From Morinoia aosen (taxonomy: Eukaryota; Arthropoda; Malacostraca; Amphipoda; Talitridae): a stretch of DNA of 64,000 nt. The stretch is taken from contig CM059574.1 in the NCBI GenBank assembly GCA_030386875.1, positions 5,525,934 through 5,589,933 of the forward strand, written 5' to 3'. Both the position numbers and the translations under genes were made by a program. Below, piece by piece: positions 16,201 through 63,186 of this stretch; position 1 is the first letter of the stretch, and every line of letters begins with the position of its first letter. The notes under the pieces are model-generated. The model was not told the origin of the DNA. It saw only the letters and a list, made by a program, of their open reading frames with translations, and did not search any database.

Positions 16201-19200
16201 TTTAAATCCACAAAAAAATATTCGCAATGATTAACTAGCAATACTGAATTTTTGGTCAACTAAATTTAAATTATAATCAAGTTTTCGCCGAAACGTGAAA
16301 CGATGGCTAAATTGCACTGCAAACGTGAAACGATGGCTAAATTGCACTGTAAACGTGAAACGATGGCTAAATTGCACTGTAAACGTGAAACGATGGCTAA
16401 ATTGCACTGCAAACGTGAAACGATGGCTAAATTGCACTGCAAACGTGAAACGATGGCTAAATTGCACTGCAAACGTGAAACGATAGTTAAATTGCACTGC
16501 AAACTTAAAACGATGGCTAAATTGCACTGTAAACGTGAAACGATAGCTAAATTGCACTGCAAACGTGAAACGATGGCTAAATTGCACTGCAAACGTGAAA
16601 CGATAGTTAAATTGCACTGCAAACGTGAAACGATGGCTAAATTGCACTGCAAACGTGAAACGATAGCTAAATTGCACTGCAAACGTGAAACGATGGCTAA
16701 ATTGCACTGCAAACGTGAAACGATGGCTAAATTGCACTGCAAACGTGAAACGTTAGTTAAATTGCACTGCAAACGTGAAACGATGGCTAAATTGCACTGC
16801 AAACGTGAAACGATAGTTCAATTGCACTGCAAACTTAAAACGATGGCTAAATTGCACTGCAAACGTGAAACGATAGTTAAATTGCACTGCAAACGTAAAA
16901 CGATGGCTAAAATGCACTGCAAACGTAAAAAGATGGCTAAATTGCACTACAAACGTAAAACGATGGCTAAATTGCACTGCAAACGTGAAACGATGGCTAA
17001 ATTGCACTCTAACTCCGTCATTGTAAAGAGTGCTAAGGTCGAAACCTGAACAGTTCAGTGCACGCGGTATGAATAGCGAGGAGTCTCCTTCCAGAATCGA
17101 CCTAAAACTTGATGACCTTGACCATAACGAACAATATCTTTTGATAAACCCTTTCGAAAGCTGATCAAGAGAAATCGAAAAGGTCCTACGAACGATGGCA
17201 TAAAACAGCGGAACCAGTTCCTGAACAACGAGGAGAATTGTCCACTATGGTGTGGGAATGTCTTCCCTCACACTGCAGAAGGAGTTAACTCTTATCAAAA
17301 TTCGATAGTAGAAAAGAAAGGAAAGTGGAAAATATACACTATAGGTGAAATCGTCTTGTTTGATGAGATATTTTCAGTTGAAAGGGATCAAAACAGGCGA
17401 AATGATCGCTTCATAGGAAACAATGGATCTAAATTCAAAAGAGATAGTCAATACTTTAATTCATTTGTTCACACCTTTCTAGTTAATTTACGTTTCTTAA
17501 TAAGACCCCAACGAAGGCAATCTCAAGAGAGAAAAGAGAAGGAACCATTTAGTATTTACTTCAGGAAACGGGGAATCTATTCGCAAGATGCATTCCCATA
17601 CAGGATACTCTGAGCATAGAAGCAAGTTAGGAAGAAAAACAAAGAAAAAACACAGCAAAGATGGCAGGAAAGGAAAAATGTGGGCACTAACGATAGGCGT
17701 CTCGCAGGCTTTTACATAGCTGAGGGAACCTAACAATATATACCTCGAGACGCCAGCTTAATTCCACAGAAGAAACGAGGCTCTCTACCCTAACCCGATT
17801 CTCTACCTGATGTCCCCTGGAGGGAGTTTGTTTCACTACCAAGCCAGCTTCTGCAAAGGTTGAGTTGATAATTTCTTCATCTTGGAAATACCATCATATT
17901 TTCAAAATCAATGCAAAAGCATACATTAATGACATACTGCAGCATATGTTTGATTTTGCTTCCACACTTTCTGTTATTGGTAAACTGTGGATCTTTTAGC
18001 AAAATGGAGCGATTGATCACCACGCAAGCCCAAGCCTGATGCAAAGACACTTTGCTACAATTTCGGCCATAGAAATGTATTTGTCAAATTTCACTCCCAT
18101 TCACGCACTTCTCACTTCTCGCAAGTCTTTACTTCTTTCTGCAAGGGACGACCCTCGCCAAGAATTTATTCATGCCGCAAATAGTGGTGAGCCACGACGG
18201 TTTAAAGTTGTAGTTGCCAAGAAAGGCAATTATTTAAATGAGCATACTTTAACCCTTTAACGCCCCAGAGGACACCAGTGTCCTCTTTCAAAAATACCCT
18301 CAATATATTGTATTTCTTGTTCAATTAGTTCCCTAATGTGTTCTTTGAAGTTCTCTGCCGGGTGGCAGTTCCTATCCCATCCTGATATTGGTGACCTCCT
18401 GATGCCAGCGCCAGTTTAGTGACGGTGGTTGTGTTAACGGTAATATGAGTACAAAAATTCGGACGTTAAAGGGTTAAACTAGGTTAAATCATTATTTATA
18501 TATGTAACAATGCATATGTTTGAATAGAAATACAAGGTTTTACCTGATATTAAGTTGTTTCTTATTGCTTTGATCCTTATGTTTCTTATTGCTTTGATCC
18601 TACTCTGGTGAATGTTTTATATAACAAATGAATCACAGTGCTTCAACTAACAATGAGACTAAAATAACGTTAACCTAATAAATGACTAGCGTAAGACCGA
18701 GCCGCTCATTGACATTTAGCAATACAAAACATCAAAGTTGCTGAATTTATACCAACGCTTCACGTATGCAATATCTATTACTAGGGAAGAAGGAAATGAA
18801 CGAATTTCACAAGAATATTGCACCCCACAGAGTTAAGTTTTACGGGTAACCCTGTAAGAGTTTGTAAAATGTATTTTTTCTTTTGCTGCATCGTAAAACT
18901 CCGTCATTGCAAGATGATACATTGCAACGCAACATACGAGTATACTGTACTCTTAAGCGAAGCAAAACCATGATTTGAGTAAAAAAATTAGGTATTAGTT
19001 TAAGCCATCCTAATCGCAACATAGGCGTTCCAAACCTGGGAAGGAGGAAGGCACTAATTAGTATCGACTTTAGGAAACGCGAAATCTACGCACAAGGTGC
19101 ATAGAAACAGTAAGTTTCTATGCACCTTGTTTTCAACTTGTATCTTTAAGAGACAAGATAAAAGTTGAATAAGAAAGTAGCAGGTGCTGAAAAACAGGAC

Positions 19201-22200: not shown

Positions 22201-25200
22201 CATGCGGCCTGGCGAAAAAAGCAAAGTACAAACTTTGCACACAAATCAAAACAGTTCCGCTACCGGTAACCGATAGAACAGACCAGCGATTGTGATATTT
22301 GGACAAAGAAATATTTTAGCAAAAAAGCAGATCTGCAAGTCCAAAGATACCTGTTAACCAACATCAGTAATGAAGAACTGAGGATACACAGGCGTTTATA
22401 TAAACTAAAAAGGAAAAAAAACTGAATTACCTAACAAACAATACACATGAAATCAAATTTCAAAATTATTTGAAATGATGAAGTATATGCTTTGAGGTTC
22501 ACCATAACTCTGGTTGTGAGGTCCTGATCAGGTCGTGTGTTGAGGGTTCAGCATATGACGCAGCTCACGTTGTTACCGGGAGGCCTCCTAAGGTTTTCAT
22601 CACGCACCATCGGCTGTGGTTTTTGTGTGTTCTGTTATAGTATTGGTTTGCATGCTTCATTTGTGTGTTTCTTTTTGTTTGTTTCAGCCTAGATTCTTGC
22701 TGTGCTATGAAGTATCATTGTACATAAATTAATCTTAAACCTGGAAGACCTGGCTTGCTTAACCCACTCCCAGCGGCAGGGTATCTACCGGAGCGCACAA
22801 ATTTTGAAATGGTCTATATATAGTGGCTGCTGCTGTTCACGACAGTCACTTCTCCACGCTATAAATAGTAGTGCTGCTGAATGGAAGGAATAAGTTTGTG
22901 ACTATATATAGTTTCTACCACTTTATAGGTTCAAGTTGGACCTAATTTTTTTAAATAAATGAATGAAAACGGCATATTTACTAGTTTATTTATAATCTAA
23001 CATAAAAGATGCAGAGTAATAAATTCCAATACGAATAATTTCTAGAGTAAAGACTAGTTTTGGATTTTTAATTGTGATACGTACCTACGTTTTTATCCTT
23101 GAGTACTGACGTAAAAATAATAAGTATGTTGGTAGGCCAGAAATATCAGTTTTTAATATCACAGATGGAATGATACATCTGAATATGATAACTGATTTCT
23201 CCGATACAATGTCGAAAGCTTGAACAGAATGTATAAGACGTATTTTGCTTACAAAAGTATGTTATATTTTTTAAAATGAAATTATTACTTTTATTGTTAA
23301 AGAAGATTAATATTATTATTGTTGTTATTATTAGGAGACATTAAATATCAGCGAGCCAATGAATTTCAATGCAACTGGGAAAACGAGCAAAAAATGATAG
23401 CAAAGCAGGTTATTGACGTTCATTGTTCAACTTACTTAAAATTGTCTGAGGAACTGAAAAGGATGCCAGACAACACTTTTTTGCACGCAATCTTTACATT
23501 GTAGCCACCGCTTATGTGTAGCAGGCGGAATAAAACTGCAACTATATATAGATGCGTCGCTGAATGGGACAATTTTTGGGACCAACTCAATATAGTTTTG
23601 CTGCTTGGAATGGGTGAAGTTCCACCATCTTGGGAGGTACAGTTGAATGGTTCTTTTTGTTAATTAGCATGTGCATTGTCGGAATTTTCAGTTCATCAGT
23701 TAATTTCTGTTTTGGTTTACTTCTTTTATTATTTTTCCAGTGTATCTTAAGATATTCCTTTTGATTGATTTCCTTTATTTTGAGTTGAAGTAGTGCTGTT
23801 CTTTATGTTCATTTTACTTATAAAATTTGCATTTTTTATTTATTTGATATACTTTGCTTTATGAGATTCATTTGCTTCAGACTTCTGTTTCATTTATGTT
23901 TTTGTTTCCTCTTTTCGTAAAGCCTGATCATAAGAGTTGCTTGCGGTTCTTGTACTTATAAGTTACACATTCTTTTCAGCCGGCAAGTCCATGCGCCTTA
24001 CTGTTGGCCTCATCTTGTCATACCTGTTTGTACATTCTCTACTATTTGCTGTGCCTCGGCATCAGTTATTTCTCATATTCTGGTTCTGAGTAAATTATAA
24101 CAAACACTTAAGTTTCATTTTGCCAATAGTTAAAGACTCGCTATACAAGATCGATGATGTATTATAGTAAATTCTGACCCCACAACAACATCAGCGAACA
24201 CGCCAGACAGCGGCGCCACTGAGACTGAGGTTTTGATGAGAAGCTTGTGTCCCCACAGTGTCCTTCAGCTCACCTGTCTCCATAGGAGTCCCTGACCATG
24301 TCCTGCAGAGTCTGTACAGTGCACGGGGCCTCTGCAGCGTCCTGCACGCGCCGCAGGAAGTCCTGCTGGCCGAGGCTACTAAGGCGGTCCAGGTCCACCA
24401 TGGTCGACTTCTTCGTCACATGACTCAGCGAGAACTGCACCAACCGCAACACAAATCAACATTGAAATGTGCTACACTTTGAGCGCAAGCACTTTTTCTT
24501 TATCAGTTGAGATATTTTAGAAGTAAATGAACTGTTGCCGTAGACGACTGAACCATTTTTTCCGAAGGTTGAACTAATTTCCTAGTAGATTTCACTTTGT
24601 ATTTGTGGAAGAATTAAAAAATTACTGCTGAAGATTTCCGTAATTTCTCGAGCTCATGTGCTGCATTCAATTTTTGTGCAGATGAAATCTAAACTTTAAA
24701 AATAATAACTATAACATAAGATGCTCATGTTAAAAATAGCTAATAATTGACTTATTTAAACTGACTACAACTCAAAATATCGCCAAATAATAAGTCAAAT
24801 TGCCGACGAAAACAAAACTGAAATTACAGGGTGGTTGCTAAAAAAGTACACCTTTTAAAATTTCAATAAATTTTTAAATGTATGATATGGGAGATCATAA
24901 CATGAATATCCAAAAGGACAGAACAATATTCTAACATATCTGGTATACTCTCCTAATAAGCATAAACATCAAAGGTACATGATAGAAAGTTATCGTTATC
25001 AGCAAAAATGCCACAACTCTTCAACAACGCAAGTTTATGATTGAAGGACATCTAAAATTAGATCCATAATCGGGACTCAGAGGAAATTTTTCTTGGAATA
25101 GCGATTGAAACCTAGCAAAATAATGATTCAGAGGAACTTCCAGAAGTGGTCATCCATTTTATTGTGAGAAACATTAATAAAGGAAGATCTGGAAGAAAAT

Positions 25201-28200
25201 TTTCTGCACGCACAGCAAAAAATGCTGAAAGACTGAGCACTCTGATCCAATCGTGGGTCCAGCAAAGTGAAATAAAAATGAAGAATTACTCATCTTCTTT
25301 CCAATAACGCGAGTTTTATTTCCTTATTCTGTCGGTGAAAAAGGGTTTAGCAATTTTAAAGCTATATACTTTTGCAACCAACCTTTTTAGATGTATAAAG
25401 AACCAAGTAGGCAAAAAAGAGGAAAATACCACAAAAGAAAACAAGTAACACACAGAAGAACGAACTCCCATTTGCTAGAACGAATGCAACAGAAAAATAA
25501 GAACAGTGGAGCCACACCTTGTCGACAAGCTCGTCGAGGTTGTAGACGAGCTGCTGGTCCCTGTCGTGCACCGCGCCGCCCAGCACCAAGTTGATGATGG
25601 TGCGTGCCGAGTGTCCTGAGCTGCACACCACCTCATCGCAATAATGCAAGTCGTACTGTGAGCCCTAGTTGGTGCTCAGTTTATACTGTACTGGTATTAT
25701 GAGACATTAAAGGGGTGGGTGTGAACGTTCAAATGGGAGATTCCTTACGGCCTCATCATACCTTCTCTACACTGAGTTGACACACAGGAACGGCATACGA
25801 CGCGATGTCGGCATAAAAATACGTCAGTCTCACAGTCGTTACACAACATACTTGTATGAACGGCATAACTGGCTACCAAGATGAGGATATCGTAATGAGC
25901 AAAATATTGAAATATTGTGATTTATTAGGCCAAAACACTCACAAGCAACACTCACTGCCTGTCCGCCACCACAAGCAACACTCACCGCCTGTCCGCCACC
26001 ACAAGCAACACTCACTGCCTGTCCGCCACCACAAGCAACACTCACTGCCTGTCCGCCACCACAAGCAACACTCACCGCCTGTCCCCCACCACAAGCAACA
26101 CTAACTGCCTGTCCGCCACCACAAGCAACACTCGCCGCCTGTCCACCACCACAAGCAACACTAACTGCCTGTCCGCCACCACAAGCAACACTCACCGCCT
26201 GTCTGCCACCCCAAGCAAAACTCACCGCTTGTCCACCACCACAAGCAACACTCACCGCTTGTCTGTCACCACAAGCAACACTCACCGCCTGTCTGCCACC
26301 ACAAGCAACACTCACCGCCTGAGCTGCTCCACCCTTAGGTGGTCCTGCCGTTTTGACAGCTTGGAGCCGTCAGTGTTGAGCAGCAGCGGCAAGTGAGCGT
26401 AGGACGGCGGAGTCCAATTCAATGCTCTGAGGGACAAAAAAGCTGGTGTGATAGTGAAGCTACTGGTGGTGTGATGGTGACCCTACTGGTGATGTGATGG
26501 TGGAGTTACTGGTGGTATGATAGTGATGCCACTGGTAGTGAAATGATGACTGTGCTGTTGAGGTGGTCGTGGAGCTCCTGATAGCGTGATGGTGAAGTTA
26601 CTGGAGGTGCGGTTACATGATACATCTTCAATGGTGGTCATTGACATTGAGAGTGTATGTGACAGTTGAATTCAAGAGGCTATATGAACAACGTTATGTA
26701 CTATCACAAGGAAATCTGAGGAAAGTTAGAATTCAAGCACTTAGAATTCTGAACAAATGAAAGGAATTTCTAATTATCAGAAGGCGCTTGACAATGTTTG
26801 ACTGTGCTGCCATGAGGAAACAAATAATGCACTCACTGGTACATGAGAAGGTGCTTGGGAGTGGACGCCAGCCACTCATTCCCTCTGATCACATGGGTGA
26901 TGGCCATGAGGTGGTCATCAACCACATTAGCCAGGTGGTAGGTGGCCTGGCCATCCGTTTTCAGGACCACAGGATCAGCTTCATCGAGGTGGTAGGGGAC
27001 GGTCCCGTAGACTGTGTCTTCCCAAGGTCCGATTTCACTGAGCTGCCCAGGTGGCAGTTACCGTTAATAAGCATAACTCTACCACGGCAATGTTCCTATG
27101 CTGGGACAGCGTAGTCTGGACCCAATGAAACTGCTAGCAATGTGCTTCCTCGTGAGGCAGAGTAGTATTCCAATTCCATCACTGCTAAAATGATTACTTA
27201 TTTTGTCCCATAGCTGAGGGATAGCAAGTCTGACCAGTATTATACAGTTGTATAGTCACACAGAGCGCGGAAATACTGGGTAAGCTAAACCCTAGACTCA
27301 AGTGTATGGTTATCTGCAGAAAAGACAATGTGTTTCATGCTATTAAGGTTGCACATAGATTGTATTTGAGCTCATTTGAGGCAATTACAAGATAGAAATT
27401 GAAGTATTTTCCAATTAAACTGAAGGTATTATTCTAAGATCAGTGATAGTTCTTTAATGATGTCTGCATGTGACACGTAATTGGTCAATTAAAATACTTA
27501 TAATGCTATGAGATGAGAGCAGTGCCAAGGGGAAGAATTTTGACAAATGCCACATGGCCTCAACACCGCAAACCCACGTTCATGAAACGAAAACATTCGA
27601 GATACCGAGACACGTCCTCTTGCCACCATTCTACATCAGCCGCTTTGCTCTGGACAAACTATAGCTTAGAGCATTCATTGTAAGGAAAATAGCACAACAA
27701 GACGGACGATATTCCATCCAAAAATAAACAGTAACCAGGAACATGTTGAACGCTATTGTTTGAACAAAATGATGTTTAAATAGAACTCGCAACAACGATG
27801 GTATTTCAATCGATATATGTATAAATATTTATAGATGCAATAGAAAAAGAAACCATGATGTAGATCGATCAGAATTACAACAAGAGTAGGGTCATTTTCT
27901 TTTTCATTAGCACCTCATCTTAAAGTGTCGTTCACCAGGGATATACTCCCTCAAACACGCCCCTTGAAAGCCAGATGACAGCAGATAACATTCCTTCTAA
28001 GGCGAGGCTACTTCTTTACAGTCCTTCAGCTTGATTTTTATGATGCTAATATAAGGACTTGAAGCATTTTCAGACTCCGTCTGTAGCTTGAGTTTATAGT
28101 TCTCTGGCTAGGTAAATTGTTCCTGTGTCGCTGAAAATTGTTACATTCAGTACACTGTCGAATTATAAACTTATATATATTGAGACCCTACTGTATTCAT

Positions 28201-31200: not shown

Positions 31201-34200
31201 TCTTTAAATTTGAAGTCACAATGACCTCACCATCATTTCAAATCACTTATGAAGATAGTAAGCCAAATGCCAGTATTCAATTATAATAGAAAAAACTCCA
31301 TTCTAAAAATGTATTGAATATTTTCCAAAGTACATATATTCTTCTCTGTGGATGACACAAACTTTACTTACACTTTCTTATTTACAGTAAGTCCTCTTAA
31401 GGCCATCAAACGGTTTTTTCCTCGAAATTTTCAAAAATTAAATAATAATACTTCTGGAGCGAAATAGGCTCTGAGGTTTTAACAGCATGTTTATAACAAT
31501 CTAATAAACATTCATAGCCCATAAAATTATTGAAATTTATATGTATCCCCCTTCCCCCTCCCTCAGAGAGAAATTTCTAAAAATCCTATTTCTCAGCCAA
31601 TATTGTACATAGAGATGATTTGTTTTTTTTGTTTGATTCACAATGACCTGGCCAACAAAGTTAAGATCCAGATTTTTGATATCGCTTCAAAAAAAATTTT
31701 GGGAAGTTTTTGAATTTTTTATCACTAAATATATTACATTTTAGTTATTACTTTGAATGGCAATGAAAAAAATCCTATATAACTTATCAAAAAACAACTA
31801 TGCAGGTTTATAGAACTTACCTTGATCTTTACAATGCAAAAAAGATCTCTTCCATAAGTAAAAAACTGTTGGAGATATACTTGAAAAAGTTGAGCACTTT
31901 TTCCTAAAAAATGCTTTTTTTTGTCGTGCGGGTTTATTTCTCCTACAGTTTTTCACTTATGAAGGAGATCTTTTCAGCATCGTAAAGATAAAGGTAAGTA
32001 CTATTAGGTTGAGATGTAGCTTTTTGGTAAGTTGATTAGAAAAGTTTTTGTAACCATTTGAAGAAAAAAAAAAATTGAAAGAAAAAACAATTTTTAATTC
32101 AAAGCTTTTTTAAATTTTTTTTGAAGCGATATAAAAAACTGGATCTCAACTTTGTCGACCAGTTCATTGTGAATCGAACAAAAAAAACTAATCATCTCTA
32201 GGTACAATATTGGCTGAGAAATAGGATTTTTTAGAAATATCTCTTTGAGGGGGGGGGGGGGGAGGGGGTATGGGTATACTTAAAAAATTTTATGGGCTAT
32301 GAGTGTTTATTAGATTGTTTTAAACATGCTTGTAAAACCTCAGAGCCTATTTCGCTCCAGAAGTATTTTTATTTATTTTTTGAAAATTTCGAGTAAAAAA
32401 CCGTTCAATGGCCTTAAGGGCACAGTCTGGGTCGAATTTGGATAATGGTAGGTTTTCGGTTTATAAACTCGTCTTATAGAGAATTTTCTTGAGCATCCAA
32501 CGGTATAATTCGCTCAAGTACGTACATTGGTTCATTTCCTAGACGGAGTAGAAGACGCGCAATAACGTAACCTTGGCGTGCCAGTGTATGAGTGATTTCC
32601 CCTCCCCCCCTAATTACGAATCAGTTTTGGGCGTTCCTCGACGTGAATAGCAAGAGAGTTCATTCATGGCCTTGCTTGAAATGATTTAGTACTCAAATGA
32701 AACATTCTAACTCTCAGTGTTAATTATGATGATGTAACTGAGTGTTTGTTTTGAGTCCGGTTGCTCTGAGTCATCAGCTAATTAGCTGTTGTGTAAACAT
32801 ATAATGGCGTCCCGCAGTTTTGAAGGTACAAGAATGGCAAATATATCATTCAAAAGGGCTCAAAAAGAGCTACTAAGCAAAAGAGTTGAAAAATAAAAAT
32901 TTATTTGTAATTAAGAAAAATACCTTTTTTAAAAAAGAGTGGTGATCTGAAATTTACATTCATTGCATTTTGATAAAGATCCTTTCCCACAGTTCTGAAG
33001 GTACAGGAATAGCTAATATACCAATCGATAGAGCTTAGAAAGATCTACATTAGGTGTAACATTTATTATAAAAAAATTCCTAGTTCAGAAATAATACGAA
33101 GAAAATAAGAACAATTTTATAAAAATGGCTCTATTGAAAACTTAACATTTTGATCTTTGAAGAGGCCCTTCTCTCACAGTTTTGAAGGTACAGGAATGGC
33201 AAATATATCAATCGATAGCGATTGAAATATCCTAGAAAGGTGGTGGTACAGTTTTATGAATTTCAAATCGTGTTGAAAATTATAAGCAGAACAATTTGAA
33301 AAAATGGAAAAGTGGTCTTTTTTGGGAAAAAATTTCTCATAATTCAAAAAATCTAATTATCGAAAAACCTTACCACCGGATCTCAAAACAAGACAATTAG
33401 CTACCTAGAAAACCTTTATTCAGTTCTGTAACTTTGAAATTGTGGGTGATGGACACTTCTCCGCAACACCCACTTTTTCAGGTTAAAAAAAAAATTTTTA
33501 TGAATTTATGAAAGAAATACATGAGTTCAAAAAGAAATGCCGCATCATTCAACACCTATTGCGAAAATCTTAGAAAAATCCGTCAAGAACCGACAGACTT
33601 TCGGTCGTCCCAGGACCGTCCCCTTAATACGGTACATATGCATTCCTGAAAACCTTATCGCGAATTGACATTGCTGTATTCCAAAGCCATTATTACATGT
33701 AATAATAAAGGATGTGTTCCAGTGCATCAAAAGTCACCCCTACAGACATGAAAATGAAAAATTCTTAGTAAAAATGTTGAGTGCTGTGCAAAATAAAACA
33801 TAAAATGTTTCTATTTACCTTTCACTTGCCAAGTCTTTTACCAAAATCAAGGATTTACTTGTGCCAGGGGAAAAGCAGGAAAAGACTACTGTGGTGGCTG
33901 CACGGCATGGTGGCGCTACGGTACGGAGTAAAAAAAATGAGCTGATACCGTATATGTGTTTTCATCCTGTAAATCGAATCCAGGGTAATAATTATCAAAC
34001 ACCGCAACTGTGAATTTACCGAGTAATGAAGTACTGTACAAGAAGGACTTACTGCACTTTCATGTTTCCCACACTGTTTCTAATAAAGCCAAATTTTAGA
34101 GAATAACGAAATATACTGTAACTGAAATACAGAACATTCATAGTCTAGTCAAAATTTTCTTACCTGTTGGACTAGGAGCAAATCTAACTCTGTAATTATC

Positions 34201-57668: not shown

Positions 57669-60600
57669 TCAAATTCTTGAGAGGAAGTCTGTTGTTCTCA
57701 GGAAGTCTATGATTGCTTCAGGACACAGAAGAGGGCTGATGATGGCATTTACTGTGAATGACACATTGTTGGCAGTGCAGAGCTGATGCAGCGGTAGGCG
57801 GAAATTATCATACTTTGGGCAAGTAATGAAGATGTGCTCGAGTGAGAGAGGACAGTGGCAGCAGCTGCACCTCAGGGGCAGAGATCTTGTCAGGTAGTGG
57901 CTGTGCATTAGGCGCGTTATGCCAAGTCGAATGCGGGTGAAGCCAATTTGGCTGGTACGGGGAAGTTGGCAAGGAACTGATTCTGTGTTTATTTGTCTCT
58001 TGAAGTTAGTTAGGTTTGCAGGGCGAGCAGCCCAGTCAGACTGCCATTTCCCTAAGTAGAAGGAATTAAGTTTGGAATGGAGCTCTCTGTAAGAGAGTGG
58101 AAGTGCCACAGTATTTGGTAGAACCAGTGCTTCTTTGGCTAATGTATCTGCACTTTTGTTGCCTTTAATGCCTTTGTGACTAGGAATCCAGTGCAATGTT
58201 ACTTTCCTAGGGGGCATGGCAAGGAGCAAGTTGTTAATCCACACAATAAGGAAATGGGTGGGACGGTTAGGTGAGCTGATTGCAAGAATTGAGGATAGAG
58301 AGTCTGATAGAATGATAAAGTTTCCACACAATTTTGATAGAAAAAGCAGAGCAGTGTATATGGCATAGAGCTCTGCAGAATATATTGTGCAACCTTGTGG
58401 GAGTTTGGCCTTTAGTTGAAAGTCATCACTGTAGACACCACAGCCCGCCACACCATCCTTCATTGAACCATCAGTATAGACTGCCGAGCGGGTCGGATGT
58501 GCTGCCAGTAGGTCTGATACCACGGCTTGCCAGTTAGCATCAGGAGTACAATCTCTTGGCATAATGGAGAGAGAGGAAGAGACAGGGAGATCGGGAGTAG
58601 TGTATCTACAAGACATTGGGATGGTTTGAATGTCTGTAAACTTCAGTCCTGCCTTCTGGAATTCTCTGTATGCACATCCCAGGAAAGATAGTGGGATATT
58701 TAAGTAATCAAAAAGGGCAAATGGGTGGTAGTTGAGCAAGAGCAGACGCACTGGGTGTTGTGGGATGGCCAATACTCTGCAGCAGTAGGACATTAGGAGG
58801 GACTGTCTGTGATACTTTAAAGGAAGTAAGTTTGCTTCTGCCTCCAGCATGTAGGTTGGGGTGCACTGGAGTGCTCCTAGCATGGTTCGGGCAGCTGCAT
58901 ATTGTATTCTGTCCAGCTTTGCAAGATGCGTCTCAGCAGCTGAGCCATAAAGCAAACTGCCGTAACTTAACTTTGATCGAACAAGCGACATGTATAGCTG
59001 CCTGAGGGTTGTAAAATCAGCTCCCCAGCCCCGGGCAGATACTACTGACAGCAAACGCAGGTCAGATTGGCAACGCGATGCTAGCGTCCCAATGTGGTGC
59101 TTCCAAGTGAGAGATCTGCCAAAGTGCAGCCCCAGAAACTTCACCACATTAACGAAGGTCAAGTTCCTATTGCAGAAGTGGAGATTTGGAATTGCATAAT
59201 TACATTTGCGAGTGAAAATGATGGCTTCTGTTTTGCTAGCGAAGAACTCCAGGCCCCATTTGTAAGACCACTGTTCTATTTGGTGCAGTGCTTGTTGGAG
59301 TTGGTTTGTTGCTGTGTCCAGACTGGCATGTGTGCACCAGATGGCACAATCATCAGCATATAGTGAATGCTGGACAGAGTTTGGAATATTGGAAAACAGG
59401 TCATTTATAAAGATTGTAAAAAGAGTTGGGCTGATGACTGAGCCCTGGGGAACACCACTTGTAGCTGGGAAGGAAGTAGAATATGTGCCGCAGGAGCGTA
59501 CTCTGAGAGAGCGAGAGGTGAGGAAGTTTTGTACAAATTTGGGTAGGTTGCTTCTCAGTCCAATTTGTTTTAACTTTTGCAGGAGTCCTAGGTGCCACAC
59601 AGAATCAAAAGCATGTGAGGTATCAAGTAGTACTGCTACACAATAGTTTTCCAATGCCAGAGCTTCCTGAATGGTGGTCTCCAGTCTGCACAGAGCATCA
59701 ATTGTGCTATGTGATGCTCGAAATCCACTCTGCGAGGTGTCAAAAAAGGAGCACTTTTCCAGGTGGCTTTGCAGTCGCCAGTTGACCATCTTCTCTAAGA
59801 CTTTGCATAAACAGTTTGTCAGTGAGATAGGTCTGTATGAAGAGGTAAGGAAAGATGGCTTACCTGGTTTAATAAAAGGGACAACTATGGCTTCATGCCA
59901 TTGATGTGGAAAACCATTGCTATATAGAAAGTTGTAGAAGGCCAAGAGGCTGTGTTGATGGTGGCTGGAAAGTTGCTGGAGAAACATGAAAGGTATCTGA
60001 TCTGCTCCAGGAGACGTTGATGTTGAGGTTCTGATGGCCTTTCTCAGTTCACTGAGTGAAAAAGGTTTATTATACCAAGGAGATGAAGAGTATTGAAAGT
60101 TAGGAGGATTTCTCTCTGTAAGTTGCTTGTGGGTTTGGAATACTGCATTGGCTGAGGTGACACAGTTTCTTTGAGAGAAGAAATGAGCAAATTCATTTGA
60201 TACGTTAGTAGGATTGGTGGTAGGATGGTTATTGATTCGTAGGGCAATGAGTTTTGTAACTGGTTTTCCTTTGAAGGCTCTCACCTTGTTCCACACTTGA
60301 CTGCTTGTTGATTTGCTGCTTATTGATGACACAAATGCTTGCCAGCTTTGCATTCTGGCTTCCTTGGTGGTTTTAATAAAAATCGCCCGGGCTCTCTTGT
60401 ATTCAATCCAAAGTGATGTATTGCCTCTGTTTTTCTTATATTTGTTAAGTGCTTTCTTTTTATTTCTCATTGTGACAGAGCAAGCTTTGTTCCACCAACA
60501 GACAGACATTTTTTTTGGCGTGATTTTTTGGAGGTGCTGCTCAGCCGCAGACATGAAAGCAGATGTTACAGTGCCACATGCTTGAGTAGGGGAAAGGAAA

Positions 60601-61349
60601 TAGGAGGGTAGGGTAAGTGAGTTCTGGAATGAAGTCCAGTCTGCTGTTTTGAGAAGCCATCTGGATATATGCATGTCTGGAGAAGTTAGGTTAGATGATA
60701 CTAGAATTGGAAAGTGGTCACTTGTGCAAGGGTCTGGGTGTACCATCCATGTGAACAATGGTGCTATATCTGGAGAGCAGAGAGTGAGGTCTATGTGGCT
60801 AAAGTTTCCCTGTGATGTAAGAAAGGTGGGTTCTGAGGTATTCATTAGAAATATGTTATTGTCTTCCAGGAATTGGGCAATAATAGAGCCTCTGTGGTCA
60901 TTTGATGGAGAGCCCCATGAGATGTGGTGTGCATTTGAGTCAAGAGATAGAATGAAAGGTCTGGGTAGTTCAGCTATCAGGAGTGGGAGTTTGGTTTGTA
61001 GTAATGAGTTAGGTAAGTTAGGTGGAAGGTATAGAGAACATAGAGTTATGCTTATTTGCGGTAGAAATATTTTTGTAGCACATGCTTCCAGACTCAGCTC
61101 CAGAGGAAGAAGAACCTGATTGATTGATTCACCAACATATATTGCAACACCCCCTCCCCTGCTAGCCACTCGATCATACCGGGCTATCACCTGTTGGAAG
61201 CCTTTAATATTTCTTGTTTGCCCTGCTGTTTGCTGTGTTTCCTGGAGGCATAAGACCTGAGGGGACAGATCGGCAATAAGTTTTTGTAGGTAGGGATATC
61301 GAGCATTGAGAGATCGAAGGTTCCATTGTAGTAGGCAGAAGTCCTTCAT
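57669..61349 (-). CDS. I-clade LINE ORF2: endonuclease, reverse transcriptase and RNase H, intact (1226 aa)
   Basis: Polyprotein that nicks the target and copies the element RNA by target-primed reverse transcription. Domains: APE-type endonuclease about 1-225 (LQWN at 7-10, LQET at 35-38, LDSNAH at 136-141, SHID at 184-187, SDHFPI at 210-215); reverse transcriptase about 470-760 (LLDTSHAFDSVWH with D576, SGVPQGSVISPTLF at 631-644, YADD at 664-667); RNase H about 955-1075 (YTDGS from 958, SAELYAI at 991-997, LSDSLSS from 1014, SADTLAKEA from 1066); and a C-terminal Cys/His knuckle (CCHCPLSLEHIFITC, about 1163-1177). The presence of RNase H places it in the I group of LINEs. There is no internal stop or frameshift. 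Its ATG is two bases after the ORF1 stop (TAACTATG), which suggests coupled translation. It may still supply a working enzyme even though ORF1 is damaged. Confidence 0.95.
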   Translation of the reverse strand: MKDFCLLQWNLRSLNARYPYLQKLIADLSPQVLCLQETQQTAGQTRNIKGFQQVIARYDRVASRGGGVAIYVGESINQVLLPLELSLEACATKIFLPQISITLCSLYLPPNLPNSLLQTKLPLLIAELPRPFILSLDSNAHHISWGSPSNDHRGSIIAQFLEDNNIFLMNTSEPTFLTSQGNFSHIDLTLCSPDIAPLFTWMVHPDPCTSDHFPILVSSNLTSPDMHISRWLLKTADWTSFQNSLTLPSYFLSPTQACGTVTSAFMSAAEQHLQKITPKKMSVCWWNKACSVTMRNKKKALNKYKKNRGNTSLWIEYKRARAIFIKTTKEARMQSWQAFVSSISSKSTSSQVWNKVRAFKGKPVTKLIALRINNHPTTNPTNVSNEFAHFFSQRNCVTSANAVFQTHKQLTERNPPNFQYSSSPWYNKPFSLSELRKAIRTSTSTSPGADQIPFMFLQQLSSHHQHSLLAFYNFLYSNGFPHQWHEAIVVPFIKPGKPSFLTSSYRPISLTNCLCKVLEKMVNWRLQSHLEKCSFFDTSQSGFRASHSTIDALCRLETTIQEALALENYCVAVLLDTSHAFDSVWHLGLLQKLKQIGLRSNLPKFVQNFLTSRSLRVRSCGTYSTSFPATSGVPQGSVISPTLFTIFINDLFSNIPNSVQHSLYADDCAIWCTHASLDTATNQLQQALHQIEQWSYKWGLEFFASKTEAIIFTRKCNYAIPNLHFCNRNLTFVNVVKFLGLHFGRSLTWKHHIGTLASRCQSDLRLLSVVSARGWGADFTTLRQLYMSLVRSKLSYGSLLYGSAAETHLAKLDRIQYAAARTMLGALQCTPTYMLEAEANLLPLKYHRQSLLMSYCCRVLAIPQHPVRLLLLNYHPFALFDYLNIPLSFLGCAYREFQKAGLKFTDIQTIPMSCRYTTPDLPVSSSLSIMPRDCTPDANWQAVVSDLLAAHPTRSAVYTDGSMKDGVAGCGVYSDDFQLKAKLPQGCTIYSAELYAIYTALLFLSKLCGNFIILSDSLSSILAISSPNRPTHFLIVWINNLLLAMPPRKVTLHWIPSHKGIKGNKSADTLAKEALVLPNTVALPLSYRELHSKLNSFYLGKWQSDWAARPANLTNFKRQINTESVPCQLPRTSQIGFTRIRLGITRLMHSHYLTRSLPLRCSCCHCPLSLEHIFITCPKYDNFRLPLHQLCTANNVSFTVNAIISPLLCPEAIIDFLRTTDFLSRI

Positions 61350-61351
61350 AG

Positions 61352-63186
61352 TTAAGTTCTTGAAGTGTGTCCCAGCTTAGTGAGAGAGTCTGTAACTATG
61401 TCACTTGCATTAAGAAGGCTGCCAAGCTCAATGAAGCATTCCACTTTGTCAGTTATTTGAGAACTGAGGAATAGCTTGATGAGGATAGGAATCAGTTTAA
61501 CAAGGATGTGAGCAAAATCAAGATTAGTTGGCAGAGGTAATGAAGGCTGTGTGAGTGGTTGAAAGGGGTGCTGAGAGTTAGTGAATGGCATGTGTTGTGT
61601 ATTAGACTGTGGAGTGTGTTGTGGAGCTTGTGGCATGAGTTGTGAGTGGTGTTGAGAGTTAATGGATGGCATGTGTTGTGATGCTTGTGGGTTAGGTTGT
61701 GGGACATAGGACTGATTGGTGTCTGAGGGTGTCAAATGTTGAGAGCTGTAGGGTAAGGGAGGTTGTGAGGCTGGTAATAAGTGGCCACTGCAAGATTGGC
61801 TAGCACTTTCTAAGGTGGGTACTCTGATTGAGAACATTGTTGAAGAGTAGGTAGAGAGTTGCATGTCTGTGCTGAAAGACTGGGAAATACATTTGAAGAA
61901 TTGATGTCAGGTACCGTATTGCGTTGTGTCTGAGGAAGACTTAGGTTAGTGCTGATAGTTGTGTGTGTAGGAGCTAATTGTGCACTGATATTGGAGTTGT
62001 GTGAGCTGTAGTTAGTGCTATTCTGTTGACGTACTCTTGCACGAGCCTCTGCAAATGTTATTCCTTCATCAGTTGTAAGGTGACAGGCATCTACTTCTCA
62101 GAGGTATGCTATACAAAGTCTTGAGGTAGCTGGATGCTCCCTAGAACAGTGGTAACATTTTGGTTGCTTATCAGAGTGAGGGCAGGTATCTGCGCTGTGA
62201 CCAGTTGTGGCACAGTGACTACAGATGGGCTGTGTGGTAGAGCATCTGATCCTTGAATGACCATATTGGAGGCATTTACTACATCGCATAGGACTAGGGT
62301 AATACTTGTCGACTTTATATTGGACATCTCCAAGGCGGATTTCACTTGGCGGTGATGGGCACAAGAATGTCAATACATAAAGAGGCACATGGCTTTTCTT
62401 TGGATCTAGGAGAAGTTTTCGCACAGCAACCACATTGTGATTCTCTAGCATGGTTAATATATAGTTTAGGGGCTCATCAGCTAATTCGGGTGCCAGTATT
62501 TTGCCATATGAAAGATGTGTGGTCCAAGCCACGGAAGTAGTAATTGAGATATTTTTTCCCTTCATGCACAGATCTTTTAGCTGTAATAATTTTTGACTTT
62601 GTTCTAAAGATTTAGTAGTAATCAAGAGCAAACCACTACGCAGATATTCCACATTACTTACAGGTCTAACAGCACCGTTGATTGCTTCGGCGATCCTGAG
62701 AGGGTTGGTGCGAGTTAGGTTGATGGATGCATCAGTGCTGGTTAGGTATATCTTTCTTGTGTCTGTAGGAAGGTTTGCTAATCGTTCTTCTGAGTTGAGA
62801 TCTATACAAGCAGAGATGGGATTTGGTATATTTTGCACTGTTTTCTTCAGTCCTAGTTGGTTATTTGGAATATCAGAGTTGGCTAAGCTCGTGCAAGAGT
62901 CTGATAGTATGCCACTCATGATGGAGGAACATTCATCAATGTCGTTCGAATTTTCACAGTTGGACCTTTTTTGTGGTGCTCCTGTAGTTACTTGGGCGTC
63001 AGGTGATTGGGGGCGTTTGTGACTAATGGCACTTTTGATTTTCACTGCACTTTGAAATTTTGACTTAAATTTAACTTTATTGCCGGGTTGACCAGCCTTA
63101 ATTGGCTGACTTTTGGCGCGCCACGTTGGGGCACCGGCTCTCCATACACTTTGCACAAACTCGCCTACCAATTTAATACACAACAC
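61352..63186 (-). pseudogene. I-clade LINE ORF1 (zinc-knuckle RNA-binding protein), damaged
   Basis: The first 362 codons (63186-62101) are open and end in three knuckles: CSKCLQYGHSRIRC, CSHCATTGHSADTC (both C-x2-C-x4-H-x4-C) and CYHCSREHPATSRLC (C-x2-C-x3-H-x6-C), the gag-like arrangement of I-type elements. An in-frame TGA (62098-62100) then interrupts. The same frame stays open and family-like for about 95 codons (GITFAEARARV) up to a TAG at 61810-61812. A second frame (61864-61352) carries the Gln/Ser/Pro-rich remainder and a C-terminus (DKVECFIELGSLL) typical of such proteins. So there is one stop and one frameshift. The protein would coat element RNA. Unless the stop is recoded, this copy lacks a full ORF1. 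Confidence 0.85.

Follow-up and report, generated by a model that had tools for sequence, protein, structure and literature searches.

A 30-bp minisatellite repeats the exon 6 donor site along intron 6 of an EARS2 gene

Tandem repeats spanning exon–intron boundaries are known from amphioxus as 'mirages', with examples in Adh3 and in the globin genes BflGb6 and BflGb9; according to the part of the report available to us, the Adh3 mirage has units of 10–72 bp, many copies with splice signals and an unstable length, one amphioxus mirage was misassembled, and the Adh3 data together with RT-PCR of the globins indicate that regular splicing is left undisturbed (PMC3087553). TnC and lancelet PGBD5 have been added to the list, and the accessible portion of that account has the Adh and TnC mirages making no aberrant mRNAs (PMC3902484). 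In human IFI6 (6-16), two downstream repeat units are used as donors, as far as the available text of the source goes (PMC4526556). Human segmental duplications contain minisatellites averaging 30 bp, some of them at exon–intron boundaries, which alter gene structure; half modify coding sequence, in recent paralogs, and the boundary cases are linked to novel introns, again as given in the available part of the source (PMC2812944). A donor array was not found in the available portion of PMC3045353, and a limited search of open-access literature returned no further report of such arrays beyond amphioxus, IFI6 and the human duplications. The array described here, in a glutamyl-tRNA synthetase gene (EARS2), is a further case of this known type of junction-spanning minisatellite; the type itself is not new.

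The array lies in the window, by which we mean the whole stretch of 64,000 nucleotides that was analysed. The features around it are as follows.

26837..27042, minus strand: EARS2 exon 5, 206 nt (TIGR00464 match and spliced model)
26444..26604, minus strand: degenerate 23-bp array in intron 5 (merged from two TRF rows that overlap)
26316..26426, minus strand: EARS2 exon 6, 111 nt, end phase 2 (profile, spliced model and alignment)
26310..26315, minus strand: true 5′ splice site of intron 6, GTGAGT (donor score, spliced model and alignments)
25941..26320, minus strand: 30-bp minisatellite of 13 units, 12 of them complete and the final one 20 nt long
25937..25942, minus strand: out-of-register GTGAGT at the array end, offset 373, score 6.98
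25518..25620, minus strand: EARS2 exon 7, 103 nt (spliced model and protein alignment)
24274..24434, minus strand: EARS2 exon 8, 161 nt (spliced model)

The NCBIfam profile TIGR00464 (gltX_bact) matches four of the ten open reading frames scanned, namely those with exons 2, 4, 5 and 6 (E = 8.1e-22, 4.6e-8, 3.7e-22 and 4.1e-9, respectively). With profile matches over several exons and the SKLSKR motif, the gene carries the marks of the mitochondrial or bacterial type of GluRS, and by its sequence it is EARS2, with a putative mitochondrial location. Exon 6 encodes the KLSKRQ loop and ends in ...VEQLRR. A candidate exon 1 near 34182 was placed from a motif alone. Spliced exons 5–8 give a product of 193 residues that matched 24 distinct solved sequences (best E 2.1e-39), and the exon 6/7 junction is gap-free in the five alignments to solved GluRS displayed among these matches, two of the five being near-identical chains. 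The lack of a gap at this junction supports the donor at 26315 and the acceptor at 25620, and bears out the splicing of exon 6 at 26316 assumed in a preliminary description of the locus. Intron 6, with its +1 position at 26315, is thus 695 nt long. No RNA family scored above threshold, and a tRNA scan was negative.

A protein search of the genome returned 13 GluRS matches, four on contig C19 (the gene of the window) and nine on contig C27, and the latter sit in longer open frames than the former. Between ~55.9 and 72.7 Mb, contig C27 of this genome (G000) holds many long, mostly uninterrupted GluRS or class I synthetase open reading frames of up to 1338 aa, unlike the synthetase matches on C8, C15 and C19, which are mainly short exon-like pieces. 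The C27 region of the assembly appears to represent symbiont sequence or pooled contamination from bacteria.

Tandem Repeats Finder (TRF) places the 30-bp array at 25940–26321, with 12.7 copies and 91% matches. Its first unit opens with the final five bases of exon 6 and continues into intron 6, and every unit has a donor-like site after A(G/A)GC(G/A), so that exon end and donor are copied together. TRF and our register count both agree with the 13-fold array in register with the exon 6 donor that had been proposed. Like amphioxus mirages, the array spans an exon–intron boundary, starting 5 nt inside exon 6, and its copies carry splice signals (GTGAGT in 10 of 13 units); unlike them, it is found in another lineage, in a TTAGG-bearing genome, and is known from the sequence of one assembly. 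As in IFI6, going by the available part of that work, repeat units adjoining an exon offer multiple splice donors, with the difference that IFI6 units are used and give isoforms whereas EARS2 decoys would give an immediate stop. The IFI6 (6-16) donor minisatellite, reportedly described by Turri, Cuin and Porter in 1995, is said to have a short 12-nt unit. The human duplication repeats share with EARS2 the position of a ~30-bp minisatellite at an exon–intron boundary, and in the available part of the source they are not described as a donor array in a conserved gene (PMC2812944).

The unit was matched 41 times in the genome; the sole full-identity match is the EARS2 array and the other 40 lie at 64–71%, so a multicopy origin of the unit was set aside. 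Viral contigs gave no exact match to a 21-base stretch of the unit. Five of six frames are open through the array; with a shuffled 30-bp unit the average is 4.7 of 6, and these open frames therefore carry no meaning as coding sequence. A G-quadruplex model was likewise rejected: two-tier G motifs are present, and none was chosen by the folding program with G-quadruplexes enabled.

Exon 6 has minisatellites on both flanks, the 23-bp array on its 5′ side and the 30-bp array on its 3′ side. The 23-bp array stops 17 nt short of exon 6 and repeats weak acceptor-like CCAG sites, and by eye its units are without exon sequence. Elsewhere in the window there is a second large 30-bp minisatellite at 16291–17008 (23.9 copies, 93% matches), with a unit that is distinct by eye, and a minus-strand open reading frame at 57669–61376 (1235 aa, uninterrupted) that by eye is a candidate non-LTR retrotransposon endonuclease/reverse transcriptase.

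After the true donor at 26315 follow 12 in-register sites: nine GTGAGT, two GTTAGT (26165 and 26105) and one GCGAGT (26135). This reproduces the earlier count of 12 donor-like sites at 30-bp steps, nine of them intact; that inventory had overlooked the additional out-of-register GTGAGT at 25942. The array stretch (~380 bases) contains 11 of the 20 GTGAGT on the minus strand of the window. Scored with a consensus matrix, six decoys (26285, 26255, 26225, 26195, 26075 and 25985) equal the true donor at 10.68, while the three of the nine GTGAGT decoys with an A at –1 score 6.64. The U1 duplex energy is –11.4 kcal/mol in the true donor and in five of the six equal-score decoys, in a set of pairing results that leaves out the misplaced positions 26832, 25515 and 24272. 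In the four decoys nearest the true donor, all six intronic donor bases are intact. A thermodynamic fold of 827 nt predicts more pairing at the true donor (mean unpaired 0.10) than at any of the other 12 sites, which would speak mildly against easy use of the proximal donor, folds of this length being unreliable. The 12 repeated donors are a single event rather than independent ones.

Use of any of the 12 in-register decoys, or of 25942, would stop the frame directly after VEQLRR (CGG TGA); the spliced model thus reproduces the expectation that decoy use keeps phase and yields a premature stop. The TGA sits in the first unit, upstream of all decoys, and is one sequence fact, not 12. Coming at the very beginning of the intron, before every decoy, the stop gives no independent sign of design.

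Among the 12 complete units, departures from the consensus affect 7 of 108 positions in the donor 9-mers, compared with 11 of 252 in the remaining columns (Fisher p = 0.43), and the two CpG sites of the unit take 10 of the 18 differences. Units 5, 9 and 12 equal the consensus and units 1, 7, 10 and 11 are one base off; the two-base variant common to units 6 and 8 is the kind of pattern that internal duplication produces. Decoy donors are neither kept nor removed preferentially and show no excess conservation.

We then considered whether the junction is a special place for a repeat. If an array of equal length were placed at random in this gene, its 5′ edge would fall no more than 6 nt from a donor in 1.2% of cases; for either edge and any of the 14 junctions, at the same distance, the figure is 4.8%, with the exon 3 and 4 junctions being approximate. 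Tandem arrays abound in the genome (1.99 Gb in 29 contigs). It has 15,492 matches to a six-fold repeat of TTAGG, which we take to be the arthropod-type telomere motif and to mark the genome as arthropod-like. A genome-wide excess of donor-like arrays was sought with a three-copy AGGTAAGT pattern and rejected: there are 9,654 matches versus 37,500 for a reversed control, and since the triplets are rarer than the control, arrays show no over-representation of donors. In the ~100 triplet places listed, overlapping matches from a few arrays predominate. One of these places (L009, from G000:C1:1211355 on) is a 27-bp array; the stretch read holds 26 perfect AGGTAAGT sites, and by eye no coding exon adjoins the array.

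For a direct comparison, 48 exon ends were surveyed, 40 of 126 listed for kinesins and 8 of 79 for myosins, hand-chosen for distinct places, some of them being paralogous copies of each other. Recurrence was defined as a 24-base window found again at an identity of at least 19/24 within 320 bases downstream, a threshold that shuffled targets reached in 2 of 2000 trials; the count needed no donor call and dropped no locus. Recurring windows numbered 0–2 of 48 well within the exon, 2–3 of 48 around the exon end (with the low-complexity locus L103 counted) and 2–9 of 48 deeper in the intron, with a peak of 9 of 48 at 116 nt. In a separate run on 41 ends, recurrence was seen for the donor-spanning window in 3 of 41 and for intronic windows in 5–6 of 41. 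That set held the six EARS2 ends (the exon 4 donor about 2 bases off) and the kinesin and synthetase ends that remained after 8 of 40 kinesin ends and 3 of 6 synthetase exons were dropped for having no donor scoring at least 5. As recurrence at the exon end does not exceed that within the intron, the junction is not a preferred site of repeats in this sample, and the rate is about that expected at the edge of a repeat-rich intron.

Three of the 48 sampled exon ends (L084, L088 and L114, all kinesin) nonetheless have tandem copies of their own junction or donor. A fourth candidate, L103, passed the threshold near its exon end and was rejected as a short GTGTGTT repeat. At L114, a kinesin exon (Pfam E 3.4e-9) ends in ...DETLSTLR and its intron starts with GTGAGGTCAATTG; the 550 bases read contain 15 GTGAG, including its own donor, and most of the copied part is intron. 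At L084, the exon ends in ...DETMSTLR (Pfam E 6.8e-9) and has a copy 147 bases on (51/62 identical), with a third seen by eye; the exon ends at L084 and L114 come from two kinesin genes, are homologous to each other and perhaps do not count as separate cases. The L088 exon ends in ...LAGSERQAKTG (Pfam E 2.4e-6 at 27.2 bits, below the cut-off of 29.3), and its donor is copied 133 bases on (75/84 identical), with a third partial copy. In reverse-complement reading, the second copy at L088 has CATCTGCAG followed by TGG before the duplicated exon end, where the original has CATCCGCAG followed by CGG. If used as an acceptor, this copy would make a new exon, matching the amphioxus intron-gain model. 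Judged from these loci, whose expression is putative, EARS2 is not singular in its genome, and sibling junction duplications exist.

The reading that we consider probable is that a neutral expansion captured the donor and that the exon-proximal site is mainly used. A 30-bp segment spanning the boundary of exon 6 and intron 6 would have been duplicated in tandem, by slippage or unequal exchange, and the growing minisatellite would have copied the donor along with it by accident. We propose that the array persists because it is essentially neutral: the spliceosome would mainly use the exon-proximal donor, and occasional use of a decoy would lead through the stop codon to nonsense-mediated decay, at small cost. 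The gap-free GluRS junction, the unconserved decoys, the CpG-centred variation, the sibling duplications, the rise in recurring windows from exon into intron and the amphioxus mirages, reported to be silent, all support this reading. Against it stand the equal decoy scores and U1 energies, the use of IFI6 units and the paired true donor; with six decoys equal in score and five in U1 energy, donor sequence cannot explain exclusive use of the first site.

That equality is also what lends some weight to an alternative that we hold to be unlikely and still worth serious attention, in which decoys are used in a sizeable share of transcripts, as in IFI6, and the resulting nonsense mRNAs decay, an unregulated cost that would scale with the number of intact decoys. 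The human gene, where repeat units act as alternative donors in the available part of the report (PMC4526556), is the precedent by which partial decoy use may occur in EARS2. The amphioxus cases, on the other hand, are reported to splice normally, within the available parts of those accounts (PMC3087553, PMC3902484), and selection on an essential enzyme should oppose any strong leak, although the four closest decoys keep all six intronic donor bases.

The preliminary description had suggested that array length tunes productive splicing of EARS2. This regulated form of decoy use (AS-NMD), which would be suited by 12 decoys all in phase with an immediate stop, is a possible model, yet one based on anatomy alone, and we regard it as highly improbable. 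The stop precedes all decoys as one sequence fact, decoy donor positions are no more conserved than the rest of the unit, the junction is no preferred repeat site, duplicates of an exon's own junction or donor are seen in other genes too (3 of 48 ends), and amphioxus mirages are reported, in the parts of the sources available, not to disturb splicing (PMC3087553, PMC3902484); tuning by array length thus finds no support.

Tandem arrays are often misassembled, as one amphioxus mirage was according to the available part of its report (PMC3087553), and the copy number could be collapsed or expanded, or the array an artefact; with point variants among the units in a non-periodic pattern, and a single occurrence of the array in the assembly at 100%, there is little chance of this. 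Finally, a benefit from extra U1 sites, with clustered U1 strengthening exon 6 definition or blocking intronic premature polyadenylation without use in splicing, could draw on ten more GTGAGT within 373 nt and on the five decoys matching the true donor's U1 duplex energy of –11.4 kcal/mol, but decoy donors are not conserved, and we give it hardly any credence.

Arrays of near-identical donors within one intron probe how the spliceosome decides between equivalent 5′ splice sites, and the known cases diverge, mirages appearing silent and IFI6 units being used. Judging by EARS2 and three of the 48 exon ends, a single genome may offer many such cases, and this apparent frequency of junction repeats is a more interesting lead than EARS2 itself. 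Extrapolating from the same three ends, we tentatively raise the idea, more doubtful than not, that junction-spanning minisatellites are a common class in this genome, touching several percent of introns, with many genes carrying allelic series of duplicated donors. If true, this would constitute a natural experiment on spliceosome choice among identical 5′ splice sites, and would keep supplying new introns and exon ends.
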